Origin: Apoderus coryli
Lineage: Eukaryota > Arthropoda > Insecta > Coleoptera > Attelabidae
DNA: 64,000 nt
Assembly (NCBI GenBank): GCA_911728435.2
Contig: OU452213.1
Coordinates: 5,745,834 to 5,809,833 of the forward strand
Direction: 5' to 3'
Position 1 is the stretch's first letter, and every line of letters starts with the position of its first letter. This document shows, one piece after another, positions 1 through 60,523 of the stretch. Both the position numbers and the translations under genes were made by a program. The notes under the pieces were generated by a model that made no database searches, was not told where the DNA came from, and saw only the letters and a list, made by a program, of their open reading frames with translations.

Positions 1-223
1 ATCAGCCTGCATTTAAGCACAATAGGATACACAACAGTAGACACATGTAAACACGTATCATCTACATGTACATAGTAATGCATATCCTATACCATGCAGA
101 GGCCGAACAAATTCAATGTATAGGTAAAACCAGTCGTATAAATAGAAATAAATAAAAATAGTATGAACACAAAACGCTAGCAGGAGACCATTTTATCCTT
201 CTGCCAGCATCTCCCAAATATTT
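1..223 (-). repeat. Retrozyme-like repeat, copy 1 (clipped by window edge)
   Basis: This stretch matches 60295-60523 in the same orientation with only a few substitutions and one six-base indel; similarity stops abruptly after the shared CAAATATTT. In the second copy the repeat continues into a hammerhead ribozyme at 60222-60271, so the ribozyme end of this copy should lie just left of base 1. No protein is evident. The element is read on the minus strand because the ribozyme is on that strand. The repeat relationship is seen directly; the retrozyme label is inference. Confidence 0.7.
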
Positions 224-1590
224 GGCTTTCAGCAATGCTCGGACGGTGGTCTCCAAGCGTTCTGCCGTCGAAAAACACCAGCTAATAGAATTTGCTCAGG
301 AGTGGCTAAATGAAGTCAACAGCGTTACAGAACAGGAGGTTCAATCGTCCCAGTGGACACGTGCTGTATTTTCACTACCGAAAGTAAAGTAAACATCTAA
401 GCTGACCTTCGTTCTCCGAGTTTCAAATGAATTGTGGATGAGGGTCAGAAAAAGCGTTGGCATAATTGTATAATACATAAGCTGGACTACCTTATGGGGG
501 TAGGTCACATCAGTATAGACTAATAAAAAAATTATAAATCTTCTTTCTAAAAAATGAAAATCCTCATTTTGTCTAAGGTGACCTGCAATAGATCCTTTCC
601 TCTCATGCACCATCGCCAGTTTTTAACGAATTTCCACAATAATACAATATTCCGTCACAAAAATATCCATTGGGTGTTTTCTATCCTAAAAATAGTTTTT
701 GTAGAAAAAAAAATTCAAAGTCATAACAAAAACAGCATTTTGCTTTACATCACATCGGTAGGTGCCTGATGTATAGTGAAAACTCAGTGGCGTACATACA
801 TTAACCAAGCTATCAAGCAGCTGCTAGTGATTAGTGGAAACATTTTGAAGGTCCATGTAGGTAGTTGTTATTTACCTCGGAATTTCTTTATTTCTCAAAT
901 TAGAGAAAAGCTATTACTTAATCAGAGCTATTTATAGATTTTTCGCATTCTATTGAACAAATCATATAAATGTACGTATATTTAATTCGAAAATGAATCA
1001 AATATTAGAAATATCAAATATTTTTTAATAATTTATTTCATCAAAAATACATAAAATAAATAATTAAAAATGTTCATAATGAATGAATGAATTTACATAA
1101 ATTATAAAAAATATTATACGTAAGTACCTACTTTTTTGTATTAGGTATTGTTTCACAAAATATTGTAATTAAAGGGATTTAAAAATTATGATAAATATTG
1201 AAATTTTTAATATATTATTTAAGACAAATTTAAATATTTATCATACATTTTTTAAATGACTTTATTTAAAATAAACTGTAAAACAATAATAAAAAAAAGT
1301 ACGTACAACAACAGATTTTTTATAATTATTTTTTTCAATTCTTTTTTATAAACATTTTTTTTTTGATTATGTATTTTATTCACTGTTAATACAGGTACGA
1401 TTTAATGATAATAATAAACAAAGTTTACAAAACTATAATATATAAGTAGGTATATATATTTATATGAATTTCAATATAATACGAAAAATTTAAGCTTAGC
1501 TGCAAAAAATAAATACTACACGGAGGGCATAATATAGAGATTAAAGAAGTTCCTGCTCATTTTTGGTTTTTCTCCATTTGATGCTAAAAG
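224..1590. other. AT-rich noncoding stretch
   Basis: No gene is recognisable. Short open frames on both strands have no domain-like composition. From about 900 onward the sequence is very AT-rich with long A and T runs. It lies 3' of the last recognised paxillin exon and may include part of the paxillin 3' UTR. No clear repeat boundary is visible apart from the end of the repeat at 223. Confidence 0.5.
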
Positions 1591-1654: not shown

Positions 1655-11550
<9,896 letters not shown>

Positions 11551-12253: not shown

Positions 12254-12370
12254 AATAATAATAATAATAAAGATTTTATTGTAAAAAAAAAGATATTTTT
12301 ACAAAAGGCGAAGACGAAGCAGTGCTTCCTAACTTAACCATTCGAGAGATTTTGGCAAAAACTTGAATGG
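12254..12370 (-). mobile_element. LINE 3'-end fragment with (AAT)n tail
   Basis: Read on the minus strand this ends ACAATAAAATCTTTATTATTATTATTATT, a polyadenylation-like block followed by a trinucleotide tail that recurs at other LINE 3' ends in the window (about 36190 and 36345). Only the extreme 3' end is present. Confidence 0.5.
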
Positions 12371-14460
12371 AGCTTTGATGTGGCGTTTCCTTTAAGGTCT
12401 TCGAAACCCAGTCGTAGGTCCAATAATTTAAGAATTTACTTCTCGGGCGAGCTTCAGCATGACTACGATTATCTCCAAAATCTAAATTGGCTCAGGCAAC
12501 ATGTCTCGAATGATGGCTTACGGCGAACATATAGCGAACTTCGTAGAAATGTGAATCATAGAATATCGTATGAGAAGGGTGCGATTTTTAGTAATCGCTT
12601 GGAAAATTCCAGCAACAAAGCCAAAACGGTGTGGAAAATTTTCCGAGAATATACTGGAAAGGTCCAAAATCGTAATAAACCAATAGCCCTCACTCACAAC
12701 AACAATATTATTTCAAACCCATCTGAGGTCGCTACTGTTTTCTGCACGTACTTCTCAACTGTAATTGTGGATAAACTACATTCCCATTTTAATGGAAATT
12801 TGTCTGCCCATTGTACTGTGGGGACGAATAATCCCAGAAGTATGTTTTTTGGTCCAGTGTCAGCGGAGGACGTTGCAAGAGTCCTATCTAAATTCCCTAA
12901 TAAAAAATCTACGGGTATAGACAGTATTCCAATAAAGGTATTAAAGGAGTCTTCTGACGTGTTCTGTCCCATAGTGGCGGAGTTGTCAAGTATGTCGGTG
13001 CATCATGGGAGATTTCCGGAGCAACTGAAGAGGTCCGTTATCATCCCATTACATAAAAAGGGTGACCAGAAAGCCATCGCAAATTATAGGCCAATAGCTT
13101 TAATAAGCACTGTGTCGAAGGTGATTGAGAAGCTTGTGGCCGAGAGAATTTTTGAATTTGTAAGCCAGTGTGATGTGTTAAGCGGTTGTCAGCACGGATT
13201 TAGACAAGGTTTTTCCACTGAAACCTGCACCGTCGAATTTGTTCAACAGGTTCATGATCTGATTGATAACGGCTCCCATGTAGTGGCTCTTTTATTCGAT
13301 TTGTCCAGGGCATTTGACGTTGTTGATAGAGACTTTCTATGCCAAAAATTAGAACAAGTTGGCATACGTGGACCGGTCAATCAGTGGATACATTCTTATT
13401 TGAAGGACCGAAAAATCGCGGTTAAAATTGAATCTGTTGTGTCAGACTTCTTAAATGTTGATCTGGGCACTCCTCAGGGAGTATACTGGGCCCATTGCTA
13501 TTTTTACTTTATATTAACGATCTTCCTGCAAATATCACACACGGTTTTCAGTACATGTATGCTGATGACACCACTCTTTTATTATCTGACAGGGATCCTG
13601 AAATTCTAAAACATAAGATAAATGTCACGCTCGATGAGTTTCGAATGTGGTGTCGGAGTAATAGGCTGATGATCAACTTTGACAAAACAGTTGCTATACA
13701 CTTTAATAAGTTCAGAACATTGGATCTCAACATAAACTTTGATCATATCCATCTTCCTCTATCAGATTCTGCTAAACTGCTAGGAGTTTTTGTTGATCCG
13801 CATTTCAGCTGGGTAACGCATATAGACCACCTTTGTAAAAAACTTAATACGTGTTTATATATTATTAATTCGCTGAAGACTTGCATGAATGTGCATGTCT
13901 TACTCAATATATTATGCATTGATGTATTCAGCAATTGCGTATGGTATAGTGGTCTGGGGCAGGTCTAGTATGATTGACAGAGTTTTTATACTACAAAAAC
14001 GAGCAGTGCGTTGCATTTTTAATATTCCTTTTAGGGGTACTTGTAGGGACGCTTTTAAACAAAATCGTTTGCTCACAGTCCCATCTATTTACCTATATAA
14101 AACGCTCTGTCATATTTACAAAAATAAAGATGGCGCGCGTACGTGTGGAGACAACCACGAGTATTCCACTAGGGGAAGGGACCGATTGTGCTTGCCTCGT
14201 CCCAAACACGAATTTTACAAAAAGTCACCAAAATACGCGGGCTACCAATGTTATAATCTCCTGCCCGAGGACGTCAAGGGTTGCGATTGTAATTGTTCAT
14301 TTGTTTGTTCATTTGCTGTTTATTTATTTTATTTTTTTTTCTCTGAATGTTGTTATGAGTGTTTTTATTTTAAACATTATTGTTTACATATTGACATGTC
14401 TATGTACAGAAATTTACAATTTATGACTGAATAAAGAAATTTGAATTTGAAATTTGAATT
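12371..14460 (+). mobile_element. Jockey/CR1-type non-LTR retrotransposon, 5'-truncated
   Basis: Contains reverse transcriptase and C-terminal coding on the plus strand and ends with AATAAAG followed by repeated TTGAATTTGAAA, a typical short-repeat LINE 3' tail. The endonuclease part is missing, so the copy is 5'-truncated. It lies between paxillin's LD1 exon and the next LINE. Confidence 0.85.
12380..14434 (+). pseudogene. LINE ORF2 reverse transcriptase, frameshifted
   Basis: The frame 12380-13609 (409 codons) carries the upstream linker (AKTVWKIFREYTGK), RT palm blocks YRPIALISTVSKVIEK, HGFRQGFSTE and LLFDLSRAFDVVDRDFL (motif A Asp), and a corrupted TPQGVYWAHCY in place of TPQGSVLGPLLF. 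Near 13490 the frame shifts; 13495-13968 then continues with MYADDTTLLLS, the catalytic Asp-Asp. A second shift near 13900 leads to the C-terminal region 13889-14300. The original enzyme would copy its RNA at a nicked target. At least two frameshifts inactivate it. Confidence 0.85.
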
Positions 14461-18779: not shown

Positions 18780-19435
18780 TTTTAAATTAAAAAAAAATCA
18801 AACACATACACGCACACACAAAATTTTATTTATAAAATTCACTTCAACAACAACAGTATTATTGTAAAGCATCAAATTTTGAGATGAACTACATTAAATA
18901 ATTATATAGTTTTTCGATGGAAATTCGAAAACAGCACGACGGTTTCAGCAAAAATTGGCCAACACATATAAACGTTTGTTGATTTTTTGGCAATAAAGTG
19001 TTAGTTAGTAGTTTCCAAAGACTAAAAATAGCTCTCGACACGAACTAGCATTAGGCAGTGTTTACTCTTTTTTTTTTTTATTTTAGTGATCTATAATTCA
19101 AATTGCAAACGAAAAAATAATCATTGACATAGTTATCTCAAAATACACAATAAATTTTATAATTAATATCTACATGATACTATTAAGATTTTAATTTTGA
19201 ATTGATCAATTACACTTTTAATACTAAAATATCTTCATATATTATTTAATAAATATAATAAATAGAACAAGTCAAGGTCTCAACCTACTGAATAATTTAA
19301 AACTACACCAACCGTATAGGGTAATTCCACGCCAAATCAACTAATATCTTAACAATTTTGAACCGTGATTAGTAGGCTTATATAGTAACAAAAATAAGGA
19401 AGAGAGAGAGGAAGATGTTTGTAACCTAAAATTAT
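18780..19435. other. AT-rich intergenic stretch
   Basis: No coding or repeat structure recognised. It sits between the putative exon at 18617-18773 and the RNase H-bearing LINE, and could contain the promoter of that exon, but no element can be pointed to. Confidence 0.4.
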
Positions 19436-19436
19436 A

Positions 19437-21605
19437 CCGAAAACAGGACGCCGTCCAGAGGATGACCCTAAGTCCTACAGGCCTATTAGTCTAACCTTCT
19501 TCCTACTGAAAACTATGGAAAAGATAATAGACGAATACCTAAGAAGCGCAACTTTAAATAGGAAACCGCTTCACAAAAGGCAATTCGCCTACCAAGCGGG
19601 AAAATCTACGATTAATGTCCTGCACTGCTTAGTAAAAGACATCGAGAAGTCATTTAAGGCAAAAGAAGTATCCTTATGTGCCTTTATTGATATAGAGGGT
19701 GCTTTTGACAATACCTCACATGAATCCATCAGTAGAGCACTAGTGAAATGGATTCAGGCAATTTTGAAAGACCGTGTCATTACGGCTGAAATAGGAGAAG
19801 TGTCTGTAACAGTGACAGCGGCCAGGGGATGCCCACAAGGCGGTGTATTGTCCCCTCTTCTATGGTCACTAGTGCTGGATCATCTCATTTCAAAAATGAA
19901 TAGGGCAGGCTTTACTCTGCAAAGCTACGCCGACGACATTGTTCTCACAGTTAAGGGAAAACACACATCGGTTATATCCAACCGCATGCAAATTGCATTA
20001 AACAAAATTAAAAACTGGTGCGACGCTGAGGGATTGAATATAAATCCGAAAAAAACAGTGTTGGTACCATTCACGAGAAAGCGAAAGGTGGAAATTATTA
20101 ACCCCACTTTGCCTTTCGGATAAAGTCAAATACCTGGGAGTAATCCTGGATAAACGATTAATCTGGAATCAGCATATAGAGAAAACCATATCGAAAGCCA
20201 CAGCGGCCATATGGACACAGGCTACTCGGTAGGACTTGGGGGCTAAAGCCAAAGCTCACATACTGGGTGTACCAAACAGTCATTAAACCCATGGTTACAT
20301 ACGCCTCATTAGTATGGTGGCCAAAAGTTAATATTAATCATACACAATGCCGTCTTCAAAAGTTGCAACGGCTTGCATGTTTAGGAATAACAGGGGCAAT
20401 GCGAACTTGCCCCACAGCAGCGATGGAAACGTTGCTGCATCTAATACCTCTGCCTGTCCTAGTCAAAAAAGAGGCAGCAATTAGCGCTCTGAAACTGGCA
20501 CAGGTAATGGAATACAAATCTGGCGATCTAGAGGGACACATGGGAATCCTGAATCTAATACCTTTGGATTCAGGAAGAAAACCGTCAGACGCTTTGCCAC
20601 GCAAACATGATTTTGATATCCCATTTGAGGTGGTCATTGCAGACCGTCAAAATTGGCTAAATGGGGAACCACGATTCCCAGAAAACACATCCGTCTGGTA
20701 TACGGACGGTTCAAAAGGAATAGAAGGGAACACAGGCATGGGAGTATACGGGCCAAATTGCAGGCTCTCTGAATCTCTCGGGAAAAGTCCCACTATATTC
20801 CAAGCAGAGATCAACGCTATTAATCGTTGTGCTCAAGAATGCCTGCAGAGAGGCATCCCGGAACGGCAGATCAATATTATGTCAGACAGTCAAGCTGCGT
20901 TAAAAGCACTGAGGTCTTACACATTCACGTCAAAGCTAGCATGGGAATGCAAACAGACCCTAAAGCAACTGGCAGCTCAGGGGAAAAAGATTACTCTGAC
21001 ATGTGTACCAGGACATGAAGGCATAGAGGGGAACGAAGCGGCGGACCAACTTGCAAAAGAGGGCGCAAATGCTCCGTTCTGCGGCCCGGAACCCATCTTT
21101 GGCCTTCCAAAAAGCCATATGAAGGAAGAACTTCGGAGATGGGAAAAGGAACAACTTAAGTCCTACTGGAGAAACACTCCAGGCCTAAGACAATCAAAAA
21201 GGTTTATCAAACCTTCAGAGGCCAACGCAGGGAATCTTATCCAACTGGAGAGAAGCGACCTAAGGCGAATTACAGGCCTTTTTACGGGACACCACCCAGT
21301 GAGGTACCATCTCAAAAAGATGGGCCTAACCGAGGACGACACTTGTCGGTTTTGCGAAGACGCAACAGAGACAACAGAACACGTGCTCTGTTAATGCATG
21401 GCACTTTTCTGCAAAAGGCTAAAACCCTAACAACCGACGAGGCAAGGAATTTAGCCCCCAGAGAAATCATCAACTTTATGAAAAGTGTGGGACAGCTGGG
21501 CAATTCATAGATCAGAGTCATTCACAAAAGATCTTCTGCAGGTCGAAGTGAGGGGAGGCCAAACCGCCTAAACGACTCCGAAAAACAATCTACAATCTAC
21601 AACCT
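19437..21605 (+). mobile_element. RNase H-bearing non-LTR retrotransposon (I/LOA/R1-like), 5'-truncated
   Basis: Starts inside the RT fingers at PKSYRPISL and continues through RT, connector, RNase H and a terminal Cys/His motif, ending near 21605 in repeated CTACAATCTACAACCT, a plausible 3' tail. A related copy with a different extent lies on the minus strand at 54826-56640. Confidence 0.85.
19515..21394 (+). pseudogene. LINE reverse transcriptase and RNase H, frameshifted
   Basis: 19515-20123 holds RT: FIDIEGAFDNTSHE (motif A), ARGCPQGGVLSPLLWSLV, YADDIVLTVKG (catalytic Asp pair) and LNINPKKTVLVPF. A deletion after SRAL removes a few residues that are present in the minus-strand copy. A frameshift near 20115 separates this from 20267-21394, which has the connector (KPMVTYASLVWWPK) and an RNase H domain: VWYTDGSKG, AEINAI, IMSDSQAAL and LTCVPGHEGIEGNEAADQLAK carry the DEDD-type acidic residues. 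It ends with a C-x2-C-x7-H-x4-C motif (CRFCEDATETTEHVLC). RT followed by RNase H excludes the classical CR1 clade. Confidence 0.85.
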
Positions 21606-23429: not shown

Positions 23430-25030
23430 CTTAGATAGATAGATATATTTATTCACCATCTTATGTTACATAACATGTATAGTACGTCAAAAAAGAACAA
23501 CAATTAATCAATCAAAGTTACAGCAACAAAGAAAGGCTTACAAACAAATTAAACTAGCAACATAAAACAAACTAAAATCTAGAAAAATCTTACAATATCG
23601 CTTCTGAAATAGTCCTCAAAGGTATAAAAAGCTTGAGATATCAAAAATGACTTAATACTTTTGTTAAACTGGACTTCACCAAGGTTCTTTATGTGAGACG
23701 GCAGCTTATTATAAAATTTAACACAATAATAGTCACAACCTTTCCTAGTCCTCAATAGGCGGTGAAATTCAGGCAATATGTCATTGCGATTCCGCGTATC
23801 AGAGTGAAGAGTGAAATGCGAGGCATTGGTTCGAATGTAGCCAAGACAGTTTAAGATGTACAAGGAAGGCAAAGTAAGTAGTCCGTGTTCAACAAAATAC
23901 TTTTTACAGCAGTCACGCCAACCGAGCCCCAACATTATACGTAAACATCTCCTCTGTAGCTTGAAGATTTTCATTGCATGGGAACTATGTCCCCAATTCA
24001 AAATACCATACGACATACGGGAAACAAAATAACCATGATATACAGACAGGCGATTGAAACACTCTGCGCAAGCCTTCTGATGAGATATATGACCCTGGAC
24101 AGCGAGCACCCAAGTTCTCGAACATGACTCTCCCAGGTTAATTTAGGATCAAGATGAACCCCAAGGAACTTCACGCGAACATCGCTCTGAAGATCGATAG
24201 GCGCAGAACGGAATGTAAAGTTCATGCTCTGAGTTTTAGCCTGATTCAAGCTCAGTTCATTTGCCAGAAACCAATTGCCTATGTCAGTCTCAACAGCATT
24301 AACCAACTCCCCTAAAGGGTCGTTTGGTCGATATCTAATCAGACTAGTTGTGTCGTCAGCAAAGAGGATTATATTTGACTCTTCTTGAAATTTGTATAAA
24401 TTATTTACGTATATTAAAAACAATAAAGATCCCTGGGGCACACCCCGTCCAACCCTTCGTCTCTCCGAGTATCGTCCCCCATACAAAACGTGCTGAAAAC
24501 GATCGCTGAGATAAGAGCCAACCAAGGCAACACTGTCAACATCAAAGTTATAGTAAGAGAGTTTCCGAAGAAGCATCTCGTGTGAGACACAGTCAAAAGC
24601 CTTAGTGAGGTCATAAAAGGAAGCAAAGGTGTCACAGCCCCGCTCCATGCCATCCGAAACATATTCCAAAAGGTTATTAATTGCAAGAGTAGTAGATCTC
24701 TTATTACGAAAGCCATATTGACCTTGCATAAAGAGATTATTTGCTTCAAAATATTCAGTTATTTGATTTTTAATAATAGACTCAAAGATTTTCGAAAAAA
24801 TTGGCAAGATCGATATTGGTCGATAGTTACTGGGATCATAATCCGATCCTTTATTTTTGTAGATTGGAATAACCCTTGCCTCCTTCAAGACCGCCGGAAA
24901 TACAGCGTCACCAATGCAATGGTTTATCAACTTAGTAAGCGGCACCACTAGCAGATTCTTTAAAGTCCCAATAATCCTAACATTAAGCTCATAACAATCC
25001 GAGCTTTTTGTGTTTTTCATAGCTGATAGT
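23430..25030 (-). mobile_element. CR1/jockey-type LINE, 5'-truncated
   Basis: Minus-strand RT frame 25020-23998: YRPISILPIFSKIFES, QYGFRNKRSTTLAI, SFYDLTKAFDCVSHEML (motif A), RRVGRGVPQGSLLFLIYVN (a few residues lost from the usual PQGSVLGPLLF) and ILFADDTTSLI (motif C). A frameshift near 24050 moves to 24109-23579, the C-terminal IWGHS-like and NDILPEFHRL region. The 3' end is an ATCT/ATATCTATCTATC microsatellite around 23432-23450. The upstream endonuclease is absent. A small deletion and the frameshift inactivate it. Confidence 0.85.
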
Positions 25031-32200: not shown

Positions 32201-35200
32201 TCTTATAGCTGCCGGTATTGGAGAAGTGCGGAATAGCAACGATGCAAATCTAACGTATGAGGGTGAGAATCATGTGTTGATCCAACAGAACAGCAATTGG
32301 TTGTTGAAATTGTGGCCAATGGTGTTAAAGCGGCAGAAAATATGGACGAAGATGGGTTCCGCAGATTTTTTAACTAACGGGCTGGATATTTTGGCCAATA
32401 CTCGGTTTAATGCCAGGAATTTTGCTGAGATTTCCGAACCTAAAAGTAAATCACATATACAGGGTGACCAAAGGAAAACGAAACTGATGAGGCCTTTTCG
32501 AAAAAATCTAAGACACGTTGATTTTATTTGCTAGGAATCATTTTTGGGCAAAAAATTACAATTTTGCTTACTTTTCACAATTTAGTATTTTTTCTATAAG
32601 AGATTTGTATCAACATTGATTTGTTTTTCAGATATTATTATTATTATTAGTTCAGACAGTAAGCGGTGAAATCGATGAGACTGTCGCCCGATTTATAAAA
32701 GATAAAACTCGGCTCAGTGCATAAAAACACGACGATTTACTATAACGAGTAGTGGACTATGCAGCTGCCCCGATCTTTAAGCGTAATGTCCAGTCTGTTC
32801 TTAAAACTATTCACTGTTGGCGCTGATACAACCTCCTCCGACATATCATTCTACGCATATACCACTCTATTTGCCAGAAAGTTTCTTCGAGCGAGCTTGG
32901 CGCATCTTTCTTTGCACAATTTCTTGCTGTTACCACGTAGGCTCGGATTTCTATTAAGATGAAAGAGATCCAAGTTTATTGTTTAATGTCCGCTAAGAAC
33001 CTTTTACGTCTGTATCAAGTCGCCACGACGACGCCTTTCTTGAAGCGTTGTTAAGTTCAAAGTTCTTAGCCAATCTTCATATGGCAGGTGGCACAACGCT
33101 TGTTGAAGCTTGGTAAATCTTCTCTGAACTCTCTCCAAGGCCTCAATATCCTTAACAAAATAAGGAGACCATACACTATTGGCATATTCCAGGCCCGGCC
33201 TGGCAAACGACTTGTACAGCTGCAGAACCATGTCATTGGACCTGGATCTAAATGCTTTCTGGATCAAATAGTCTTCTTCACTACGGCCGAGACATGGATT
33301 TCCCATTTTAAATCATTGGTAATAATCACGCCGAGATCCTTTTGCTGGAGAGTTGATCTTAATTCGTGTAGGATATTTCGGGGTTATTTGGTCCCAAATG
33401 GAGGACTGTACATTTATCCAAATTCAAACTCATCAGCCAAGTTGATGACCAAGTCATCACTCTGTCGAGATCGGTCTGGAACTCCTCAGCACTCTGCAGA
33501 GGTCCACAAAACAGTTTAGAGTCATCAGCAAAGAAACTTGTATTTGCATTTATATTTCCCGTCAGATCCGATATGTAAACCAGGAACAACAGCGGGCCCA
33601 ACACCGAACCCTGAGGCACCCCGCTGTGGACCGGCAGTCTACGCGAAATCGAACCATTCGCCCTAACCTGGAAACTTCTTCCTCTAAGGAAACCCTCAAT
33701 CCATCGCAGGAGTTCTCCGCGAATACCATAATCTTCCAGCTTCAATAGCAGACGAGCGAATGGCACCTTGTCAAATGCCTTCTCAAAGTCCAGGTACACC
33801 ACATCAGTAGGCTGACCATCATCGTTCTGTTTGGTCCACAAGTTAAGACATTCCAGCAGATTTGACTCCACTGATCGTCCCGGCATAAATCCATGTTGTT
33901 GGTTAGGAATAACGTTTGACTGCAGTAAAAATGGAGTCATTGCCTTCGTAATAATTTTCTCCATGCATTTGCACAGGGCACAAGTCAAACTAATTGGTCT
34001 ATAATTTTCAGCATTGTATTTGTTCCCTTTCTTATAAATTGGTATGACTATTGCATTCGACCACCCATCTGGCAGGGTTCCGGTGTTAAAACAATTCTGC
34101 ATTGCTCTTGTTAAAGGTTGCAACAGTGGTTCAATGCATCTCTGGAGGAAAACCGGTGGGATCTCGTCCGGACCCGGTGCTGGTGTCAGTCTTCAGTGCT
34201 GTGATAGCCTCCCTCACGTGGTTGTTTGTAAAATTGACAGTTGTCATTGATTGTGGGTTCCGGGTGTTTTGCGGTAGTGTAGGCATGTTACCGGTCACTT
34301 CCCTGGTGAAAACACTGCTAAACTGATCAGCGAATTCCATTGAACTTGTTATCATTTCGTTGGTAACGTTACTTCTCAGTGAAAAGGTTGCAACATTTGA
34401 GTTCAACGATCTTCGTATGTAAGCATAAAATTTTTTGTCCGAACCACTTGCCAGCCCATTTTCATATTTAGTTCTGGCATCTGCTATCATTGTTTTGAGT
34501 TTATTGTTTTGTGTTCTATAATACAGCACGTAGTTTTCATTAGTTCTCAATTTTCAGTACTTTTCCCACAAATTTCTCTTCCTTCGTGTTTCCCTAAAAA
34601 TACCATCCATGGCTTCTGTGTGTTGACTTTTCGACGACAAATTGGTATATATTATTATGCGGCATGCTTCAAAGTCGTGAACACCACACAAATTGTCCGA
34701 CAAGAAAGAATTTATAGGCGTGTAGTCAGCCACCCAGAAGTTACTCTTTACTACAGATTTAGTTACCTTATTGTCAGTTGAGCGTGAGCATGGACACCGA
34801 CATGGTCGCTCAACCCAAGTGGCGGATACTGTGAAATTTTGTGTATGAGTTTCTTATCAGAAACCATCAACAAATCCAGCAGCGAGGATTGTTCATTTCT
34901 GTTTTGTGTGTTGAAGTCAATCATCTGTGCAAGGTGACAATTCTTATAAAAATTCAGAAAATCAGCAGCGGCAGGATTGTTGCGTGTCAAGCTCAAACTA
35001 TTCTATGCGATTTCGGGAAAGTTGAAATCGCCAAAAACAAATGTGGGTGCGTTGGACGAAACAAAAACCTTCATGGTCTCTATAAGGCTCTGCTCTCGAA
35101 TACAGATACAGACTTTGGGCTGTTTTTTTTGTTTTTTCTCTACTTTTCCTATTTAAAATCTGGGGTTGACTCTTACTCCTCCAATTTTACCAAAAAAGGT

Positions 35201-40077: not shown

Positions 40078-43000
40078 TTAAGGCGTTTGAACATAATGTG
40101 GCCAATTTTGTAATTCTTTATACAAAACATTACCGGGACTCAATGTTGCGCTGACTTGCCTTCCACCAAACAATCTATAATCTTGATGGAGCTCACCAAG
40201 TTCTACAGCGCATTTTAAGAAGTTTTTCGCGACTTTTAAAGCTTCTGTTGTTGGTAATTTTTCTGAAAAAGGTACAGAAATAATATTTTTCTACTTTCTC
40301 TAATTCACTGCTAATAATAAATACCTGAAAAATTGCCTATGAATGCTAATCCAATGGATCGAGTGTTGTAACCGCGAGTATGTGCTCCCACCTTATGCCA
40401 ACTCGCTCCTTCATACACGCGTCCGTCACCACCGATTAAAAAACTAAAATAACAAATAATTACAATAAGTCCTTATATATTGTGGAATTTGTAGATAAGT
40501 TAACTTACTTGTACCCAATATCAGGAAATTCCATAGTATTCATGTGAAAGTGTTGAATATTTCTTAGTAATTCTGAGCATCCATCTAAACTATTGCATTC
40601 TGGGGTAACTGTGTGATGTACCACAATATTTTTTATTGGTATTATTGCGTATTCCACAGATATAGCAGTCTTACCACCCCATTGTTTTTTAGACTGTATG
40701 TCAGGGCAAACAGCAGGCCAATCTACAAAATTAAATTTGGCCGGATATGCATAACATACAAGCTGTCTTAAAATAAAGTTGTATATGAATAGCTACATGG
40801 TTTTTAGGACTCATTCAGCCTTCAGTCGCTATATGGAGCTCTTCTCAAAATAGGCGATTCAGTGAATATATTTATTTATTTATTGTCATTACATGTCATT
40901 ACCAAAAAACCAAAAAAGGTTTACACAAGTCATATTAAATATTAAAATATTACATAACACAACATAGAAATGTATATAACTGAATCAAAACAGAAAGTCC
41001 GTGCTGAGGAATTCATCAATGGAGTAAAAAGCCTGGTCAATTAAGTAGTTTTTTAATCTACTTTTGAACATTGCAAGGCTCAGTGTTTTCAAACTATCTG
41101 GCAAATGATTATAGCATGTGGGACCATAATAATTCACAGAATTTCTGCTTCTACCCAACCTCATATATATTCAGGACGAATGTCATTTTTGTTTCTGGTA
41201 TTGTGGTTGTGAACTTCATCATGCCTTATGTACAGATTGTAATTATTTTTCACATACACAATTAAATTGTAGATATAGAGACACGGGAGTGTAATTATTT
41301 TACATTCTTTAAATTTAGGTCTGACATCCTCTCCAAACTTTAAATCTGTCATTATTCGAACCACTCGTCTTTGGATTGCGAATACCCGACTAGCATGACA
41401 AGAGTGTCCCCAAATTGACAAAGCATATGAAGCCACACTGTGAAAAAGGCCATAATATGCTGATTTCAAAACATCAAAAGAGACTTCACCCTTCAAGCTT
41501 CGCAACATGAACACAACCTTAGACAACTTGGCAATGGTAACCTCGACATGACCCGCCCAGGTCAGCTTTTGGTCCAAAGTGACACCCAAAAACTTTACCA
41601 GACCATCAGAAACAGCAACATCCGTCTCACGTAATGTAAATATTTTAGTAGCTGTTTTATTGGCATTCATACAGAGTTTGTTAGCTGCAAACCAGTCCGC
41701 AGCCCTCGACTGTGAATTAATCATACTTGAGGCCAGAACATCACTCGGCAGTTCAACATCGACAATAGTTGAATCGTCTGCAAACAATGTCAGGTCAGAG
41801 CATGGCAGATGTAGCGGTAAATCATTAATGAAAATCAAAAACAATAGAGGTCCGAGCACCGAGCCCTGTGGGACTCCACAAGAGCTCAACAAGGGCTGAG
41901 AAGACTTTGACTCAAACATCGTTACAACATTCCTACCAGTGAGATAGGAACTCAGCAAACGAATCGAATTCGCACTCACACCGTATCGCTGCAGTTTACC
42001 CAACAAGATATCGTGTAAGACGCAATCAAATGCCTTTGTTAAATGAAGAAAAGAAGCCTCCACAAGCCTTCTACTCTCAAAAGCGGTTATAACGCTATTT
42101 ATAAAGTTTTCTATAGCTGAAACGGTGTTAAGTTTCGGTCTAAATCCAAATTGTTTCGGAGAAAATAAATTATTTATTTCAAAATAGATGGCTAATTGTT
42201 TAAAGAGTATCTTGTCAAAAATTTTGCCTAGAACAGGCACTATAGAAATAGGGCGATAGTTGTTCAATTCATCTGGAGATCTTTTTTTGAATAACTAAAT
42301 ATATAAATATAATATATATAGCGCGGGGGGAAATTTCACAGTAATCGTGGATTGTATAATTTAAATTATGCCTTATTCGGAAATAGATAAAAAAATTAAG
42401 TAACCTGATCTAAACTGGATAACCAAAATTTGTGCAACCAATGGTCAACAGCGCGCAAGTTATTTAAATGTTCATACCTATATCACAGCATATATATCTT
42501 TATGCTGGCCTATATCATTGCAACCTAATTCTTCAAAATCATCATAAATTGCGTCCATACCATAAACGAAGTGGTGCAAGAATTAAAGACTCAGAATGCC
42601 AGACAGTTAATTATGATGATGATGACAAATCTACCTAACTCTGCAACATTTTTTCATTGTATAGACTGCGATGTTGGCTCAAGAGATAACGGGCCCGTAC
42701 TTTTTTAATAACGAGAACAGTCACAGTCGTGCAGTGAAAATGAATTAGTTAAGAACGTTATATAAAGATGTTGAATGGCTTTCTAATGCCGTGTAATATG
42801 CAAAACTTTTCAGACCAAAGAACATACGAGTTCGTGAAATTTGGCATGACAAATTAATCTGTGAGAGTTGACATAAGTTGGCCTCCACGCACTCCAGATT
42901 TGCGCCCTAAATCTAAATACCATTCCTTATGGGAATATGTTAAAAGTGTATGTCAATAAATCGACGTCTCTGGTACTTTGGTGCAATTGAAAGAAAATAT

Positions 43001-53400: not shown

Positions 53401-56400
53401 CTGATAATAAAGTAAGTCGGGAGCATCCATCGGCACAGTCCAATTCAAATATCCCGGCTCACCATTTTCACATTCTAACTTTAAGGTTTTCATATAATCC
53501 TCGAAAGTTTCCGTTTCTAAAGACTTATCAACCGTCTTGTGTTGCCATTCACAATAACGTCCTTTACCAGTCGGATACGGATAACCTTCATTATCATACG
53601 AAACGCCTAAATACACTTGTTGATCACGTTGCTGCTGTTCAGTCTTTTGACCGAAGCCACCTTCGCTTGAATTTGTAATGTAGAACGGATGGAACCTGTG
53701 CAGAGAATGGAATTACAAAGAAAATATTTTATTGAAATGATTGCTTGCCTTGCTGGATTTGTACTGTCATCACCGCCTTCAATAATAAACGTGTAGGTCT
53801 GTCCTCGCTCTACTGTCAATTCCGGTATCAACAAATCATTGATATACCATGCAATGCCCCATGACGGTTGACCGGTTATGGCGGTATAACCGCGTTTGCC
53901 TCCGGTCGGACCAATGCGTGCATTGAACGTAGTCTCACCTAAATTAAAGTCTATTGCATGTACCGGGTGGTCTAAAGTGGAAACAGCTACATATAGAGCA
54001 GATTGGCAATAAGTAAGTGGAATATCACAGGACCGATTTTTGAAAATTTGAGACATCTCAATTACTTTTCTGTTATCTACTCTATAAATAGGATACACTT
54101 TGGACCACCCTTATTTACAACAACAAATCGACAGTTTGGCTGTCATACACTGACCGAACACCAATCGTGGGTCGATGTATACAGTGTTTGACAGATAAAT
54201 TCTGCATATGTTAAGAATCGATGATAAAACATACCCATAATTCGTGCCCGTAGCCATGGCGCTAAACCGTCATCATCCGGTAAATCGTACAAACTAATCG
54301 TGCACTGATGATCGTTCATTTGCCCGAAATCGATGCGAGCATCTTTTGTTGTTTTGTCGCGAATCGAATGCGCGTTCGCTTCTTTTCGATTGTTTAATGG
54401 TCCGAAAGCCGCTATAACATTTACCTGGGAAAACGTGTAGAACCAATAACTCCTTTTCGCAAAAAAAAAGTTGACTAAAACTCACCTCCCCTTCTGTAGG
54501 CACCGGCCTATCATTGATTGCTTCATTCGTCTGCAATGGCCTGGAATATTTTATGATTGTCACACCATTATTTCGCATTCCAGATAATAGTGTAACATCG
54601 TTTCGGCCGCCGATTCGTTCATCAGGACAAACACCGGATTGGCCATCACATTGTGCCGTATGTGACATGTAATAGTCGATGGCCCTAAAGTCACGAGCAT
54701 CTGTATCATAGTAGGCGACTGTCACATCACCACCAACCTAAATTAGAAAACGTTTCAGATTCAAATTAAATTCATCAGAAAAATTAAATTATTTATGAAC
54801 TTTATATAATTTTGAAATTTTGCTCTTTGGCTGTGTTCCCTTCTATTCCTTTTGAACCGTCCGTATACCAGACGGATGTGTTTTCTGGGAATTGTGGTTC
54901 CCCATTTAGCCAATTTTGACGATCTGCAATGACCACTTCAAATGGGATTTCAAAATCATGTTTACGTGGCAAAGCGTCCGACGGTTTTCTTCCTGAATCC
55001 AAAGGTATTAGATTCAGGATTCCCGTGTGTCCCTCTAGATCGCCAGATTTGTATTCCATTACCTGTGCCAGTTTTGAGAGCGCTAATTGCTGCCTCTTTT
55101 TTGACTAGGACAGGCAAAGGTATTAGATGCAGCAACGTTTCCATCGCTGCTGTGGGGCAAGTTCGCATTGCCCCTGTTATTTCTAAACATGCAAGCCGTT
55201 GCAACTTTTGAAGACGGCATTTGTGTATGCTTAATATTAACTTTTGGCCACCATACTAATGAGGCATATGTAACCATGGGTTTAATGACTGTTTGGTACA
55301 CCCAGTATGTGCGCTTTGGCTTTAGCCCCCAAGTCCTACCGAGTAGCCTGTGACACGTCCATATGGCCGCTGTGGCTTTCGATATGGTTTTCTCTATATG
55401 CTGATTCCAGATTAGTCGTTTATCCAGGATTACTCCCAGGTATTTGACTTTATCCGAAAGGCAAATTTGCTCACCGCTGAGAGTGGGGTTAATAATATCC
55501 ACCTTTCTCTTTCTCGTGAATGGTACCAACACTGTTTCTTTCGGATTTATATTCAATCCCTCAGCGTCGCACCAGTTTTTAATTTTGTTTAATGCAATTT
55601 GCATGCGGTTGGATATAACCGATGTGTGTTTTCCCTTAGCTGTGAGAACAATGTCGTCGGCGTAGCTTTGCAGAGTAAAGCCTGCCCTATTCATTTTTGA
55701 AATGAGATGATCCAGCACTAGTGACCATAGAAGAGGGGACAATACACCGCCTTGTGGGCATCCCCTACAGACACTTCGGTCTTTCAAAATTGCCTGAATC
55801 CATTTCACCAGTGAGGAGTCGACACTCCTCTCTTCTAGTGCTCTACTGATGGATTCATGTGAGGTATTGTCAAAAGCACCCTCTTTATCAATAAAGGCAC
55901 ATAAGGATACTTCTTTTGCCTTAAATGACTTCTCGATGTCTTTTACTAAGCAGTGCAGGGCATTAATCGTAGATTTTCTCGCTTGGTAGGCGAATTGCCT
56001 TTTGTGAAGCGGTTTCCTATTTAAAGTTTCGCTTCTTAGGTATTCGTCTATTATCTTTTCCATAGTTTTCAGTAGGAAGGAGGTTAGACTAATAGGCCTG
56101 TAGTGTAGTGTGTTTTCGGTAGAAAGGCTACTCTAGTTTCCCTCCAAGCTTTGGGAATATGGCCGAGGATAAGGCTTGCTTTGAAAAACCTTTGCAACGA
56201 TGGTTGCAGTATTTCCAGACCTTTCTGGAGGAGGGCCGGAAAAATTCGGTCCATACCTGGTGATTTGAAAGGCTGGAAACTGTTTATCGCCCATTCTATG
56301 CGATTTTTTGTGAATATTTTCCCCGCAAGTTTTTTACCAGAGCGGTTGGGTCTATATGGTACCCTTGCCGTTCCGATAGCTGCTGGAGTTCGTTCACAAA

Positions 56401-59400
56401 TTCGCGACCCTGGAAAGTGAGTTTGTAATAAGACTCTAAGAATTGGCCATTTGAGTAATCCTATGCCATTGGAGTGATCCTTCGATAGGACTTTCTGCAG
56501 TCGCTGTGCGGGGGCAAGTTCATTGACCCCTTCACAAAACTGTCTCCAAGATTTCCTCTTCGCTTTCCGTAGTTCTTTATTGTATTCCGTAAGGATTCTC
56601 TTGTACTCCTCTCGGTTTCCAGATTGCCTTGCTCGGTTTTTGGGGATAAAGTAGAAAATAGAATGAGAGTAGAAATTTGGATGAGAGAGTGCTACCTATT
56701 CCGGCTTTGCAAATCCAAAAATACTCATGTAGGTACCTACTTTAAGATCATGCTCTGTAGGTATATTATTCCCTTTACAACGATATGCGTTTTACTTTAT
56801 CCCCACGGAATAGGTAGCACTCTCTCATCCAAATTTCTACGCCTACCGCATTATTCTACGCACTTAAGTAATCGAAATATAAATAATCAGTTTAAAGAAA
56901 TAAATAAATTATTAATGCATACAGTTTATGGGAGACAAGATAATCATAACTCCGATTTCATTGAAAATTTTCAAAGCAAGCTTCTAATCTCTGGTGTTGA
57001 CCATCTCAGATTTCTAATAATGCAGTGCATGTGACAAATTTGTTTATCATGTATAAGTACATACTCACAAAAAAGGACCCAAGAGATGATCCTGCAAACC
57101 ACCCGAATGTAAGTTTACGACAATATTTACTTACCATTTGCGCTCTGTTATCATCGCCTGAAATACCAAAAGCCACGTACTGGTCCTCACGCATTTTGGC
57201 GGAGAGCGTGATTTCGATGTGGTTGTTGTTGTGCAACTCCCATTGGACTTGTAGTCGTTTATCTAGAAATTCGCGGCAATTTGATGGACCGGCTGGCGGG
57301 ACAGAAGTGCTGGTCTATAACGAGTACGATATATTTATCAAATATTTTCGTTTAATTATATTTGACCAAAAATAATTATTAATAATACATATAGTATTGA
57401 AATTATATAATTTACTACAATTTACATTTTTGGTAATATTGTATAATTTTTTCCTTAACAATCGCTAATAACTAGGTATATTATGATGTAGGTACTACTT
57501 ACAGGGTTATACCACCAAGGCGGCTAAGACAAAAACATTAATTAGTACATTCATAATCATATATAATCATCTAGGTACCTATATACTTTGAACTATATAT
57601 GTAGCTATACTCGAGAAATTCTAAACAGATATTTTCGCATGGAATTGTACGTATGTATATAGGAAAACAAAAAAAAGAGTCCATTTTGATAAATACGTTT
57701 ATATGTTCTTCTTAAATTAGAGATTTAACACTTATAACATAATATTCTTTGTCCTGAGGATGATCTTAATTAGGTCAAAACGGCGGCAAAAAATTAAACT
57801 TGTATTTTTTTGACCTATAACCACCAAACCATTACATCCAATAGATATTACAAGTCACAAAGCACAAATATATTAATTATTTTATTAAATGATTCATCCT
57901 AAACAAACCCCTTTCAAGATTAGTTCGACTCGTATTTATATTCGTATTAAAACAGAGAAATATATGTGTAATAAGACGCACGGGCAATGGAATTTACTTT
58001 TGTCCTACCCTGTATTTGTGTCTGGTTTTATAGTTTTATACCAATCTGTCTACAAATATATATAGTTGGGTGAATTTTATAGATAGTTTATATTAGTTTG
58101 GGAATAGTATTTAAGTAGATTGTATACAAATATTCTAAACTCTCCTTTTTAGTCATAAAATTTAAGGGTCTGTTTTCTATTTATCTTATCTTGTATTGAT
58201 ATAGGTTTTACAACATCTGCAAGTAATACAAGTATTATCTTCGCCTAAAGGAATTGTTACGTACCTAAGAGAACAACCTTTTTTCTAATCGAGAATATTC
58301 AGTTTATGGTTATAAGTGAGCCCAAAGATAAAAGCATATATTAGAAAAGATAACCAGATGTTACAGTTACACTGTGATCGAAACACTCAAAACTTTCGAT
58401 ATAACTTCATGTAAATTAAATGTCGAACATTTATTATTATATACAAAAGCTAGTTGGAAAGCGTCACGGTTTCCCATATCAAAATAATATATATAATGGG
58501 CGCATAAAAAATAATGGGTCTTTGTCCAGTCGCGAACTCCAGTATTCCAGTTATTAAGGTCGACATACAAATAAAAATGTATCTTATTTTGTGAATCTTT
58601 TCACCCTGTAGTATATATGTATTGGGGTACCTATAGTGTAAATGCCCTTTTTTCTGGTTGGCTATTTTCCATCTAGGTACCTACTTCTCATATATGTTAA
58701 GTGTTTTGAAAAGACAATCGGTCTTTTACAAGTTAGATCCGTTCTAGCCTTGGTTCAGTCAAGTTGTGTTTTCTCTAATTATATAATGTTAAATTAAATA
58801 TTTTAATTTGTTTTTGGACTAGACTAGATTTTTTCAGTTAAGAATTATTTTCTAGTTTTTGTTTAAAGACTAAGTTCATTTCTTTTTATTCTGAAGTAGT
58901 GAATTGTATAAAGTTCCGTAAGTTTTGATATTCTTTTAATTGAAGGCCTTTTTGTTTTAATCAGTTTTTATAAAGTTTTAAGTTGTTTATTTAAGTAAAT
59001 GAAACAAATTTAGTTTTCAATAGTAATTAAAGTTTCGTACAGGAATTAATATAATTATTCGATATTATATTAATTTTCCTATTTTTAAGTAGTACAAGTA
59101 ATAACTACGATTTTCTTCTAAATTTTCATTATCGCTTAATTGTTATTCTCTTTCTTTAATTTATACATATTTATTTCTTGTTGTTATTCATTTTCTTTAA
59201 TTAGTTTTAATTATTAAATTAGTTGTTTTTAGCCCACAAATTATGCGTTTTATTTCTAATAAAGTTTTCGATAAATTATTGACAAAAGGGTCAACCAATT
59301 AATATTTTCTTTTAAATACAAGTGATCTAAGATTATAATGGTAAGTAATTTTGCATTTTTTTTTTTTTATTATTTTAGTTGTTTGTTTCTTTCATTTAAT

Positions 59401-60039
59401 AATTTGATTCTGTTATTATTCTTTTGACTATCTTAATTTGGTTCTGAGTCTTTAAGAATTATGCAACATCTAGATTAACGCTCGTTAAATATTATGTATT
59501 AAATTCGAACCTAGTGGCTATATTAATTTTCTTATTAGGGTTTAGATGGGGTAATACTCTCTGCATTCATTATCCTATCTATATATAACTCCGCTTAATT
59601 AATTGAAAATTACGCTTACCGAGATCTTCGTTTGTCCTAGAGCCGGGGGCACATCCAAATCTTTAGGCAGTAAAACATGCCCAAAATTGTGCCGGTATTG
59701 CACACACCATATCGCCAACCAATCAATATCGTACACTGTCAACGCTCCGGGCAATTGAATCTCAATATCTTCGCCTTGATAGCCACGCAACGGATCCAAA
59801 GAACCCATTTCGTTAGGCACCTTTATGCCAAATGGAGTTGGTTCCGAACCATTACCCACCCAGAAATACGCATCCGGCCCAGCACCATCATAATGAAGAT
59901 TCGGTATATAAAATGTTTTGGCGTCTAAAATGCTGATATTGTCCGATCTAAGGCCATGTGCTAAACGTTTGAATTCAGGTAGAACACGTGGTTTCGGCAC
60001 TTCTAGATTGGGTGGTATAAATACTTCTCCAAAATCGAC
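53401..60039 (-). CDS. Skeletor: Skeletor homologue (DM13/DOMON protein), six internal exons
   Basis: Exons in coding order: 59620-60039, 57135-57314, 54486-54737, 54235-54424, 53749-53938, 53401-53695; phases are consistent, giving 509 codons. Exon 1 here is a DM13 domain (LPEFKRLAHGL, YDGAGPDAYFWVGNG, LPGALTVYDIDWLAIW, FGHVLLPKD). Next comes DOMON: LQVQWELHNNNHIEITLSAK, QYVAFGISG, GGDVTVAYYDTD. Then a conserved tail: FGPLNNRKEANAHS, RIGPTGGKRGYTAITG, WGIAWYINDLLIPELTVERG, QTYTFIIEGGDDSTNPAR, HPFYITNSSEGG and a Cys-bearing segment to DLLYYQ. Skeletor is known in Drosophila as a chromosomal/spindle-matrix protein; DOMON modules bind haem or sugars. The first DM13 and the start are beyond the window or in unrecognised DNA, and the last exon is missing. 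The intron at 53748/53696 uses a GC donor. A LINE sits in the 54737-57135 intron. Confidence 0.92.
54826..56640 (-). mobile_element. RNase H-type LINE, second copy, lacking its 3' end
   Basis: Same family as 19437-21605. Minus-strand coding begins near 56640 (linker with ELAPAQRLQKVL), passes GMDRIFPALL-like sequence, a break near 56100, and RT 56063-55083 (FIDKEGAFDNTSHES, CRGCPQGGVLSPLLW, YADDIVLTAKGK). Then 55204-54962 and 55059-54826 carry the connector and the first RNase H block VWYTDGSKGIEGNT, where homology stops abruptly at about 54826. It sits in a Skeletor intron. It lacks the residues between ILKDR and the GCPQGG block that the other copy retains. Confidence 0.85.
57320..57960. 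other. Skeletor intron with a decayed Penelope-like motif
   Basis: Mostly AT-rich. At 57753-57788 the sequence CCTGAGGATGATCTTAATTA...GGTCAAAACGGC resembles a decayed hammerhead-type Penelope terminus (CTGAGGATG, paired GATC...GGTC, AAAACG). Confidence 0.35.
57967..59425 (+). repeat. 1.4 kb noncoding repeat, copy B
   Basis: Same element as 43715-45226 in opposite orientation: TGTAATAAGACG start, shared blocks such as ACAACATCTGCAAGTAATAC, GATCCGTTCTAGCCTTGG and TTTTCGATAAATTATTGAC, and an end at TAAGTAATTTTGCATT followed by T-rich sequence, then GATTCTGTTATTATTC. No coding. It is located in the Skeletor intron between 57314 and 59620. Confidence 0.78.
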
Positions 60040-60221
60040 CTAATGCAACAAAAGGAATCGATAAATTTCTTTCTAGAATCGAATCAATAATAATATTAGT
60101 AAATGAAAATAATTTCGTGGCAAAGCGGACTAAAATGTTGGTTTTACCTACACAAGGAATTTTGTTTAATTTAGCAGGGCCCCAGTCTAATTCAATAGAA
60201 CCAGACCGAGGCATGGGTCGA

Positions 60222-60271
60222 CAGTTACTGACGAATTCGTTTCGCTCTTGTTATGAGCTCGTCAGAGTACC
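60222..60271 (-). ncRNA. Type I hammerhead ribozyme
   Basis: Minus-strand reading: helix I 5' side GTACT, core CTGACGA (60265-60259), helix II GCTC with loop ATAACAA and GAGC (60258-60244), core GAAA, helix III ACG with loop AATT and CGT, then C at 60230. This gives the GUC cleavage triplet, followed by helix I 3' side AGTAAC. Every conserved core base (C3 U4 G5 A6 G8 A9, G12 A13 A14, A15.1-U16.1) is present; helix II has four perfect pairs, helix III three, helix I four plus one after a mismatch. Predicted self-cleavage is between the bases opposite 60230 and 60229. The family is well known; activity here is inferred from the fit. Confidence 0.88.
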
Positions 60272-60523
60272 ATAGTCGTTGCCCATCTACAAATATCGGT
60301 CTGCATTTAAGCACAATAGGATACACAACAGTAGACACATGTAAACACGTATCATCTACATGTACATACTAATGCATATCTCATACCATGCAGAGGCCGA
60401 ACAAACTCAATGTATAGGTAAAACCAGTCGTATAAATAGAAATAAATATAAATAAAAATAGTATGAACACAAAACGCTAGCAGGAGACCATTTTATCCTT
60501 CTGCCAGCATCCCCCAAATATTT
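60222..60523 (-). repeat. Retrozyme-like repeat, copy 2 (with hammerhead)
   Basis: 60295-60523 matches bases 1-223 of the window; the remaining 70 bases carry the hammerhead. No open frame longer than chance. Small repeats with type I hammerheads are known in animals as retrozymes or hammerhead satellites. A second hammerhead that would complete a dimer was not found at the far end. Confidence 0.65.

Follow-up and report, generated by a model that had tools for sequence, protein, structure and literature searches.

The hammerhead motif found in a 64,000-nucleotide stretch of the Apoderus coryli genome (hereafter, the window) belongs to one copy of a dispersed repeat, and the unit that matters is this mobile element and not the intron into which the copy has been inserted. 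We consider it very probable that the repeat is a non-autonomous, non-coding animal retrozyme that uses Penelope-type machinery and is copied by repeated passes over a unit-length, probably circular RNA. The element has the anatomy of a type I hammerhead ribozyme, is arranged in tandem and head-to-head, terminates in two kinds of end (short and tail) and is flanked by target-site duplications. The monomers within an array are largely identical, and the same ends and duplications are present in the insertions of Penelope-like elements (PLEs) that were read.

A complete type I hammerhead core is present on the minus strand of the window, with C3 at 60265 and C17 at 60230 (Table 1). In order, the core reads CTGACGA, GCTC-ATAACAA-GAGC, GAAA, ACG-AATT-CGT and C17, and it has the invariant elements of a type I hammerhead, namely CUGANGA, GAAA and UH within three helices of which helix I is the open one. 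Helix II is formed by GCTC and GAGC and closed by the 7-nt loop ATAACAA, and the three-pair helix III is a fully palindromic 10-mer. Cleavage is predicted at 60230/60229, with 60229 as the predicted 5'-OH base. A preliminary description of this DNA had proposed a type I hammerhead with all core elements on this strand, a four-pair helix II with a 7-base loop, a three-pair helix III with an AATT loop and the same 5'-OH base, and our reading agrees on each of these points. Its helix I was partly correct: the AGTA strand was confirmed, whereas the 5' strand is TACT rather than TCAT, so that the inner part pairs 60269-60266 with 60229-60226. Beyond this part, helix I continues through a G-A mismatch, a G-C pair and a TAT/T internal loop to a second stem, CGAC/GTCG (60278-60275 and 60222-60219). 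The TAT/T internal loop and the 7-nt loop II may be the partners of a loop I/loop II interaction.

Table 1. Positions of the retrozyme, ribozyme and gene features in the window.
Feature	Position	Strand	Details
Retrozyme copy, single 5'-truncated arm	60101..60523	-	423 bp; begins at position 232 of the monomer
Type I hammerhead ribozyme with two-part helix I	60219..60278	-	TACT/AGTA, G-A mismatch, G-C pair, TAT/T loop, CGAC/GTCG
Catalytic core C3-C17, including helix II and palindromic helix III ACGAATTCGT	60230..60265	-	
Helix I position 1.5	60225	-	A here (G-A mismatch)
DM13-domain exon, Skeletor-like gene	59620..60039	-	Pfam DM13, E=3.9e-25
Second retrozyme fragment	1..271	-	Monomer positions 185-461, 95.7%; cut by window edge

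The strict motif, defined as the core with at least 4 pairs in stem II, at least 3 in stem III and at least 4 in stem I, occurred a single time in the window and was absent from 300 windows simulated from its dinucleotide frequencies. The earlier statement that such an arrangement is very unlikely by chance is therefore upheld for the strict motif, but not for the loose core pattern, which is weak and matched at least once in 30 of 100 shuffles. For a 74-mer of the window copy, the hammerhead fold was calculated at -9.2 versus -23.3 for the minimum-energy fold; the values for an array copy were -16.1 and -21.3. The Rfam check that the preliminary description had suggested came out negative, with no hit of the window motif at the gathering threshold. 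A permissive scan revealed Hammerhead_HH9 as the best model, with a score of 20.3 bits (E=0.056), the cut-off being 52. A related copy (L005) scored 20.1, and the minimal hammerhead of a resident PLE (L059) scored 18.3 against a cut-off of 34. Because these two also fall below threshold, the low score is not decisive here, and failing the threshold tests the model library more than the ribozyme.

The assembly holding the window (428 Mb, 129 contigs) was searched for relatives. A UPF0489 protein of the host agrees with a beetle source, since all named hits ranking over the first non-beetle one come from beetles, at 45-56% identity. A 27-mer that spans the cleavage site in the array subfamily has 665 exact copies in the genome, and a reversed-pattern control has 0. 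Two further queries gave 954 and 1138 first-look candidates; 40 were scored for each, all 99-100% identical. The relatives number at least several hundred genome-wide and are dispersed over several contigs. The monomer, which has a GC content of 39% (0.394), is mostly 515-531 bp long, with 525 and 526 as the commonest lengths and a single case of 556, and the type I hammerhead occurs once per monomer in the tandem repeats. The longest ORF from a start codon in the monomer is 57 aa, and no ORF with reverse transcriptase (RT) and GIY-YIG domains was found in it. A C-terminal PLE ORF in the 5' part of the monomer was considered and rejected on this ORF length and on the arrays, which show no PLE ORF. 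A DNA transposon, hinted at by a 24-nt inverted repeat around the motif, was also rejected, as this repeat is internal to the monomer. Folded as a circle, the monomer reached -165 kcal/mol (z=-7.55 versus 60 shuffles).

The ribozyme region was not more conserved. Loci L001-L028 were retrieved by similarity to the ribozyme, and its conservation in them is therefore uninformative. Strong selection on resident copies is disfavoured, and dead-on-arrival insertions fit. Among 88 retrieved copies with an intact core, 84 have a fully paired helix I of six pairs; the other four are the window copy, with its single G-A mismatch, and three copies with several changes. Helix I is GGTGCT/AGTACC in 52 of the 88 (42 from arrays L069-L071, L083 and L084, and 10 others) and GGTACT/AGTATC in 32, and both types retain all six pairs through one-sided changes. 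Position 1.5 is accordingly C in the 52 array-type copies and T in the 32 single-type copies. No double-sided compensation in helix I was seen among the 88 copies, so that covariation neither proves nor excludes the hammerhead fold.

The copies are present as single arms or as divergent pairs of arms. For the cluster analysis, the first 100 of the 665 27-mer sites were listed, all on contig C1, and they fell into 32 clusters, of which 13 have a single site each and 19 more than one. All 15 two-strand clusters among these listed sites have the head-to-head order (-)n(+)m, and none has + before -. Ends were analysed in 42 retrozyme loci (L001-L028 and L069-L082, with L063 left out), 24 of which contain a head-to-head insertion with both outer ends in the retrieved stretch. 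Canonical ends were found on both sides in 17 of these 24, always one short end paired with one tail end (17/17), and the other seven lack a canonical end, truncated or unassigned, on one or both sides. Counted downstream from the cleavage site, the two ends lie at about 130 nt (short) and about 162 nt (tail), the 'tail' itself being 32 nt long. Shared flanks of 9-13 nt were observed in 12 of the 24 insertions (11 of the 17 canonical ones) versus 0 of 552 mismatched flank pairs, and the other 12 share no flank of at least 9 nt. Arrays L083 and L084 likewise have short and tail ends with 12-nt shared flanks, and flanks of 12-13 nt are shared in all four arrays with both ends read.

Array L069 has a minus arm of 5.25 and a plus arm of 5.24 monomers, both inside one 12-13-nt duplication; seven of its eight full monomers are identical, and the eighth is off at one site. 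In L070, with arms of 6.8 and 4.6 monomers, 8 of 10 full monomers are identical, as are five of six in L071 and four of six in L083; in L084 only two full monomers were delimited, and they differ. The sixth monomer of L071 (383-939) has a homopolymer expansion, a 31-nt poly-T in an otherwise uniform array. L069 differs from L070 and L071 at 4-5 sites, and L070 differs from L071 at one. The spacing is constant within an array and variable between arrays (515, 525, 526, 527 and 530), with 525 and 526 recurring in several. Six clusters have same-strand spacings in both arms, and there the arms agree (525 three times, 526, 527 and 530), with the exception of two single spacings, 556 and 531. When L069-L071 are excluded, passes that overlap differ on average by 2.3% within an insertion versus 4.7% between insertions (51 versus 3409 pairs), and a rare variant is common to 12 of 41 arm pairs from the same insertion (7 of 22 insertions) versus 46 of 3409 pairs from different insertions.

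These data are most simply explained if both arms are copies of a single RNA, either a circle or a uniform multimer. We favour a circle, since this is what a ribozyme in every unit and the retrozyme circRNAs described in the literature lead one to expect, although the data fall short of proof. Identical monomers could also arise if a uniform array already existed and its linear transcript served as template. An explanation that keeps the rest of our scheme but takes linear multimeric transcripts of existing arrays as templates, with no RNA circle, is a real though distinctly less probable option. It agrees with the published PLE experiments as reported, in which the template is taken to be the multi-copy mRNA of a tandem locus and ribozyme cleavage was unnecessary in vitro (PMC11167929); that work also reports no reads ending at the cleavage site, which counts against our scheme. 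The linear option further agrees with L001-L028, where each of the eight arms exceeding one monomer ends 31-141 nt downstream of the cleavage site without a second crossing of it. However, the arms of L076, L079, L080, L081 and of the arrays cross the cleavage site and continue. Furthermore, the 5' ends show no convincing pile-up at this site among 79 arm ends (6 within 0-13 nt, one of them an alignment artefact, versus 2.1 expected), and the differing monomer lengths would require a uniform parent array of each type. A hard stop of the cDNA 5' end at the cleavage site, which would be a fossil of cleavage, was itself considered; the pattern looked strong in L001-L028 but failed in the next 11 loci, and it is retained as no more than a lead. 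Separately, the 5' ends of arms in L075, L077, L079 and L080 fall within 3 nt at monomer positions 476-478, the outer base of helix I, where about 1 end is expected per 7-nt bin and the bin was picked post hoc.

The PLEs of the same genome were compared with the retrozyme. A GIY-YIG Pfam search gave 1260 candidates, 150 of which were scored. Ten PLE loci (L059-L068) were picked mostly for two nearby opposite GIY-YIG matches, and their head-to-head layout is therefore partly a result of this choice; tail and flanks were not used in picking them. The pLTR splits the ten into two families, A and B, and both the RVT_1 and the GIY-YIG domains were confirmed in L063, the one locus in which the RT domain was checked. 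All ten loci have a minimal hammerhead motif on both strands, one end with the family tail and one short end, and shared flanks of 12-14 nt, whereas the largest shared flank among 90 mismatched pairs is 11 nt. The short and tail ends lie 50 and 83 nt from the cleavage site in family A, 114 and 152 nt in family B and 130 and 162 nt in the retrozyme, and the order of cleavage site, short end and tail end is alike in all three. The minimal hammerheads of L059-L068 have a palindromic helix III (ACGCGCGT, ACGT). Several more minimal hammerhead-like motifs were noticed near the GIY-YIG matches of L029-L058, pointing to putative further PLE families in the genome.

These features resemble those reported for PLEs, which are described with head-to-head inverted pLTRs, an optional 31-bp tail and 8-10-bp duplications, and for which a rotifer case points to pLTR sequences being enough for integration in trans (PMC3846280). 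Purified PLE protein is reported to cut and extend both target strands and to start reverse transcription at two adjacent internal RNA sites, which explains the tail; no difference in start site between the strands was seen there (PMC11167929), which alone would not account for every insertion here having one short and one tail end. Since end architecture, duplications and ribozyme position of the repeat match the PLEs read, one might also suppose that the repeat is the pseudo-LTR of an autonomous PLE and that its copies are solo or truncated PLE ends, not an independent retrozyme. We consider this improbable. The arrays, whose arms span 2.1-6.8 monomers, lack any ORF over 57 aa, and neither family A nor family B has pLTR ends like the ends of the retrozyme. 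Among 40 GIY-YIG loci (L029-L068), 30 of which reach only about 1.5 kb on each side, L063 is the only one with the repeat beyond a 27-bp match, and there it is present as separate insertions beside a PLE whose pLTR is different and which has a hammerhead of its own. No PLE with the tail of the retrozyme was found in these 40 loci, a result that counts against our own scheme.

For the retrozyme, we infer cleavage, circularity, the integration steps and the involvement of a driver PLE as follows. Tandem copies would be transcribed, and the hammerheads, which might act as dimers joined by their palindromic helix III, would cut the transcript to unit length. The resulting 525-nt RNA would circularise and be taken as template by the RT/GIY-YIG protein of a PLE, which would cut both target strands about 9-14 nt apart. 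Reverse transcription would begin on the two sides at either RNA site, about 130 or about 162 nt past the cleavage site, and could circle the RNA several times before the two cDNAs were joined head-to-head. We lean, by a small degree, towards the general form of this scheme, in which an RNA circle made by the ribozyme serves a PLE-type protein as rolling template at each of the two cut strands. Up to about 7 passes would then give, in one insertion, a divergent (-)n(+)m multimer of identical ribozyme units. The relation of animal retrozymes to PLEs would in that case parallel that of SINEs to LINEs, with the circular RNA as the mobile form.

The copy in the window is a worn member of this family. 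Its alignment (60092-60523) is 96.3% to an array monomer, and its 3' end is the canonical short end, TTTTCATTT, at 60101; this is its only canonical end, and the longest string shared by its flanks is 6 nt. The placement of the hammerhead inside a repeat, already made in the preliminary description, is confirmed, the monomer being about 525 bp long. The term 'intact' used there holds for the core, but not for the copy, which has the helix I mismatch, a truncated 5' side and no tandem partner. Without a tandem partner, the copy alone cannot release a unit-length RNA. The hammerhead part of the second fragment would fall outside the window. Judged by eye on their translations, the open frames at 8722-9492, 12338-13609, 19425-21394, 23998-25029, 33359-34192, 41161-42294 and 55083-56695 resemble a mariner-type transposase and many LINE reverse transcriptases.

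The 3' end of the window copy lies 61 nt upstream of the DM13 exon, in an intron and in sense orientation. The exon has an acceptor AG/GT at 60040/60039 and a donor GT at 59619, in agreement with the earlier assignment of an exon of Skeletor, for which we take DM13 to be a marker. A dispersed repeat at 59365-59601 ends 18 nt from the opposite side of the same exon; it is 94% identical to L063 5475-5713, where it lies between the PLE and the retrozyme insertion. The sense orientation, the intact core and the short distance to the exon would suit a host role, in which the intronic hammerhead cuts and regulates the Skeletor-like pre-mRNA. We regard such a role as very unlikely, because the copy is one among at least several hundred dispersed copies, is 5'-truncated with an extra helix I mismatch and scores far under the HH9 cut-off (20.3 versus 52 bits). 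Hammerhead_HH9 (RF02275), a conserved amniote ribozyme, is the best Rfam resemblance and has a similar intronic setting, but it is a conserved single locus and not a mobile repeat. The sub-cut-off score and the multi-copy state place the motif outside the amniote HH9/HH10 ribozymes, and a conserved intronic ribozyme of the HH9 kind is rejected on this score together with the 665 copies of the 27-mer. Truncation, mismatch and number of copies argue for an ordinary insertion. We regard the copy as most probably a dead end, an intron insertion truncated at its 5' side.

Least probable of all is a satellite DNA grown by unequal crossing-over with an incidental ribozyme, which would account for tandem identical monomers and a ribozyme region that is not more conserved, but not for the head-to-head order, the target-site duplications, the short and tail ends and the dispersal over several contigs, and which is largely contradicted by the 12-13-nt duplications around whole arrays (4/4 arrays with both ends read). 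A known insect repeat with a hammerhead is pDo500 of Dolichopoda cave crickets, presumably about 500 bp long judging from its name. Likened to our repeat by description only, pDo500 is described as satellite DNA, unlike our reading (PMC2808323).

The metazoan non-LTR retrozymes, as characterised by Cervera & de la Pena (2020, PMC7229834), share with the present element a type I hammerhead, tandem monomers, the lack of an ORF, low GC, a target-site duplication of >4 bp and the presence of PLEs in the same genome. The monomer of about 525 nt is outside their range (150-450-bp repeats and 170-400-nt RNAs; PMC7229834), and we therefore file the element as a variant, since the published range is descriptive and not mechanistic. 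The divergent (-)n(+)m arrays with short and tail ends are unlike metazoan retrozymes as described, and the words inverted, orientation, head-to, tail and rolling are absent from the main text of that paper (PMC7229834). The hammerhead repeats of newt and axolotl also have a short helix III and a palindromic loop (PMC7229834), which by analogy suggests dimeric action; helix III has three pairs and is fully palindromic here, and the newt and axolotl monomer is 330-350 bp. Penelope and Poseidon PLEs, as portrayed in PMC11167929 and PMC3846280, are alike in their head-to-head copies, in a tail of 30-40 nt that one end may carry, in their short duplications (8-10 bp in rotifers) and in a type I hammerhead upstream of the sites where reverse transcription starts. 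The retrozyme differs from PLEs in having no RT/GIY-YIG ORF, arms of up to 6.8 units and a larger hammerhead with a two-part helix I, the PLE hammerhead being minimal.

Insects are listed among retrozyme hosts (PMC7229834), and PLEs have been named strong candidate helpers of animal retrozymes on the basis of shared features and co-occurrence, with PLE mobilisation put forward as a hypothesis (PMC7229834, PMC7761336). Judging by titles and the beginnings of abstracts, the papers listed in our literature searches include none on head-to-head retrozyme arrays or beetle retrozymes, and those listed for hammerheads in Coleoptera include, by title and abstract, none on beetle genomes with hammerheads. 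In A. coryli, the retrozyme and the PLEs that share its genome leave matching insertion footprints, which bears on the question of which enzymes mobilise animal retrozymes. The number of template passes per event seems to be recorded in the arrays, and this opens the idea of rolling-circle reverse transcription on a ribozyme circle to direct testing. The arrays are also a source of recent insertions, and they point to a simple origin of ribozyme satellites with head-to-head order.
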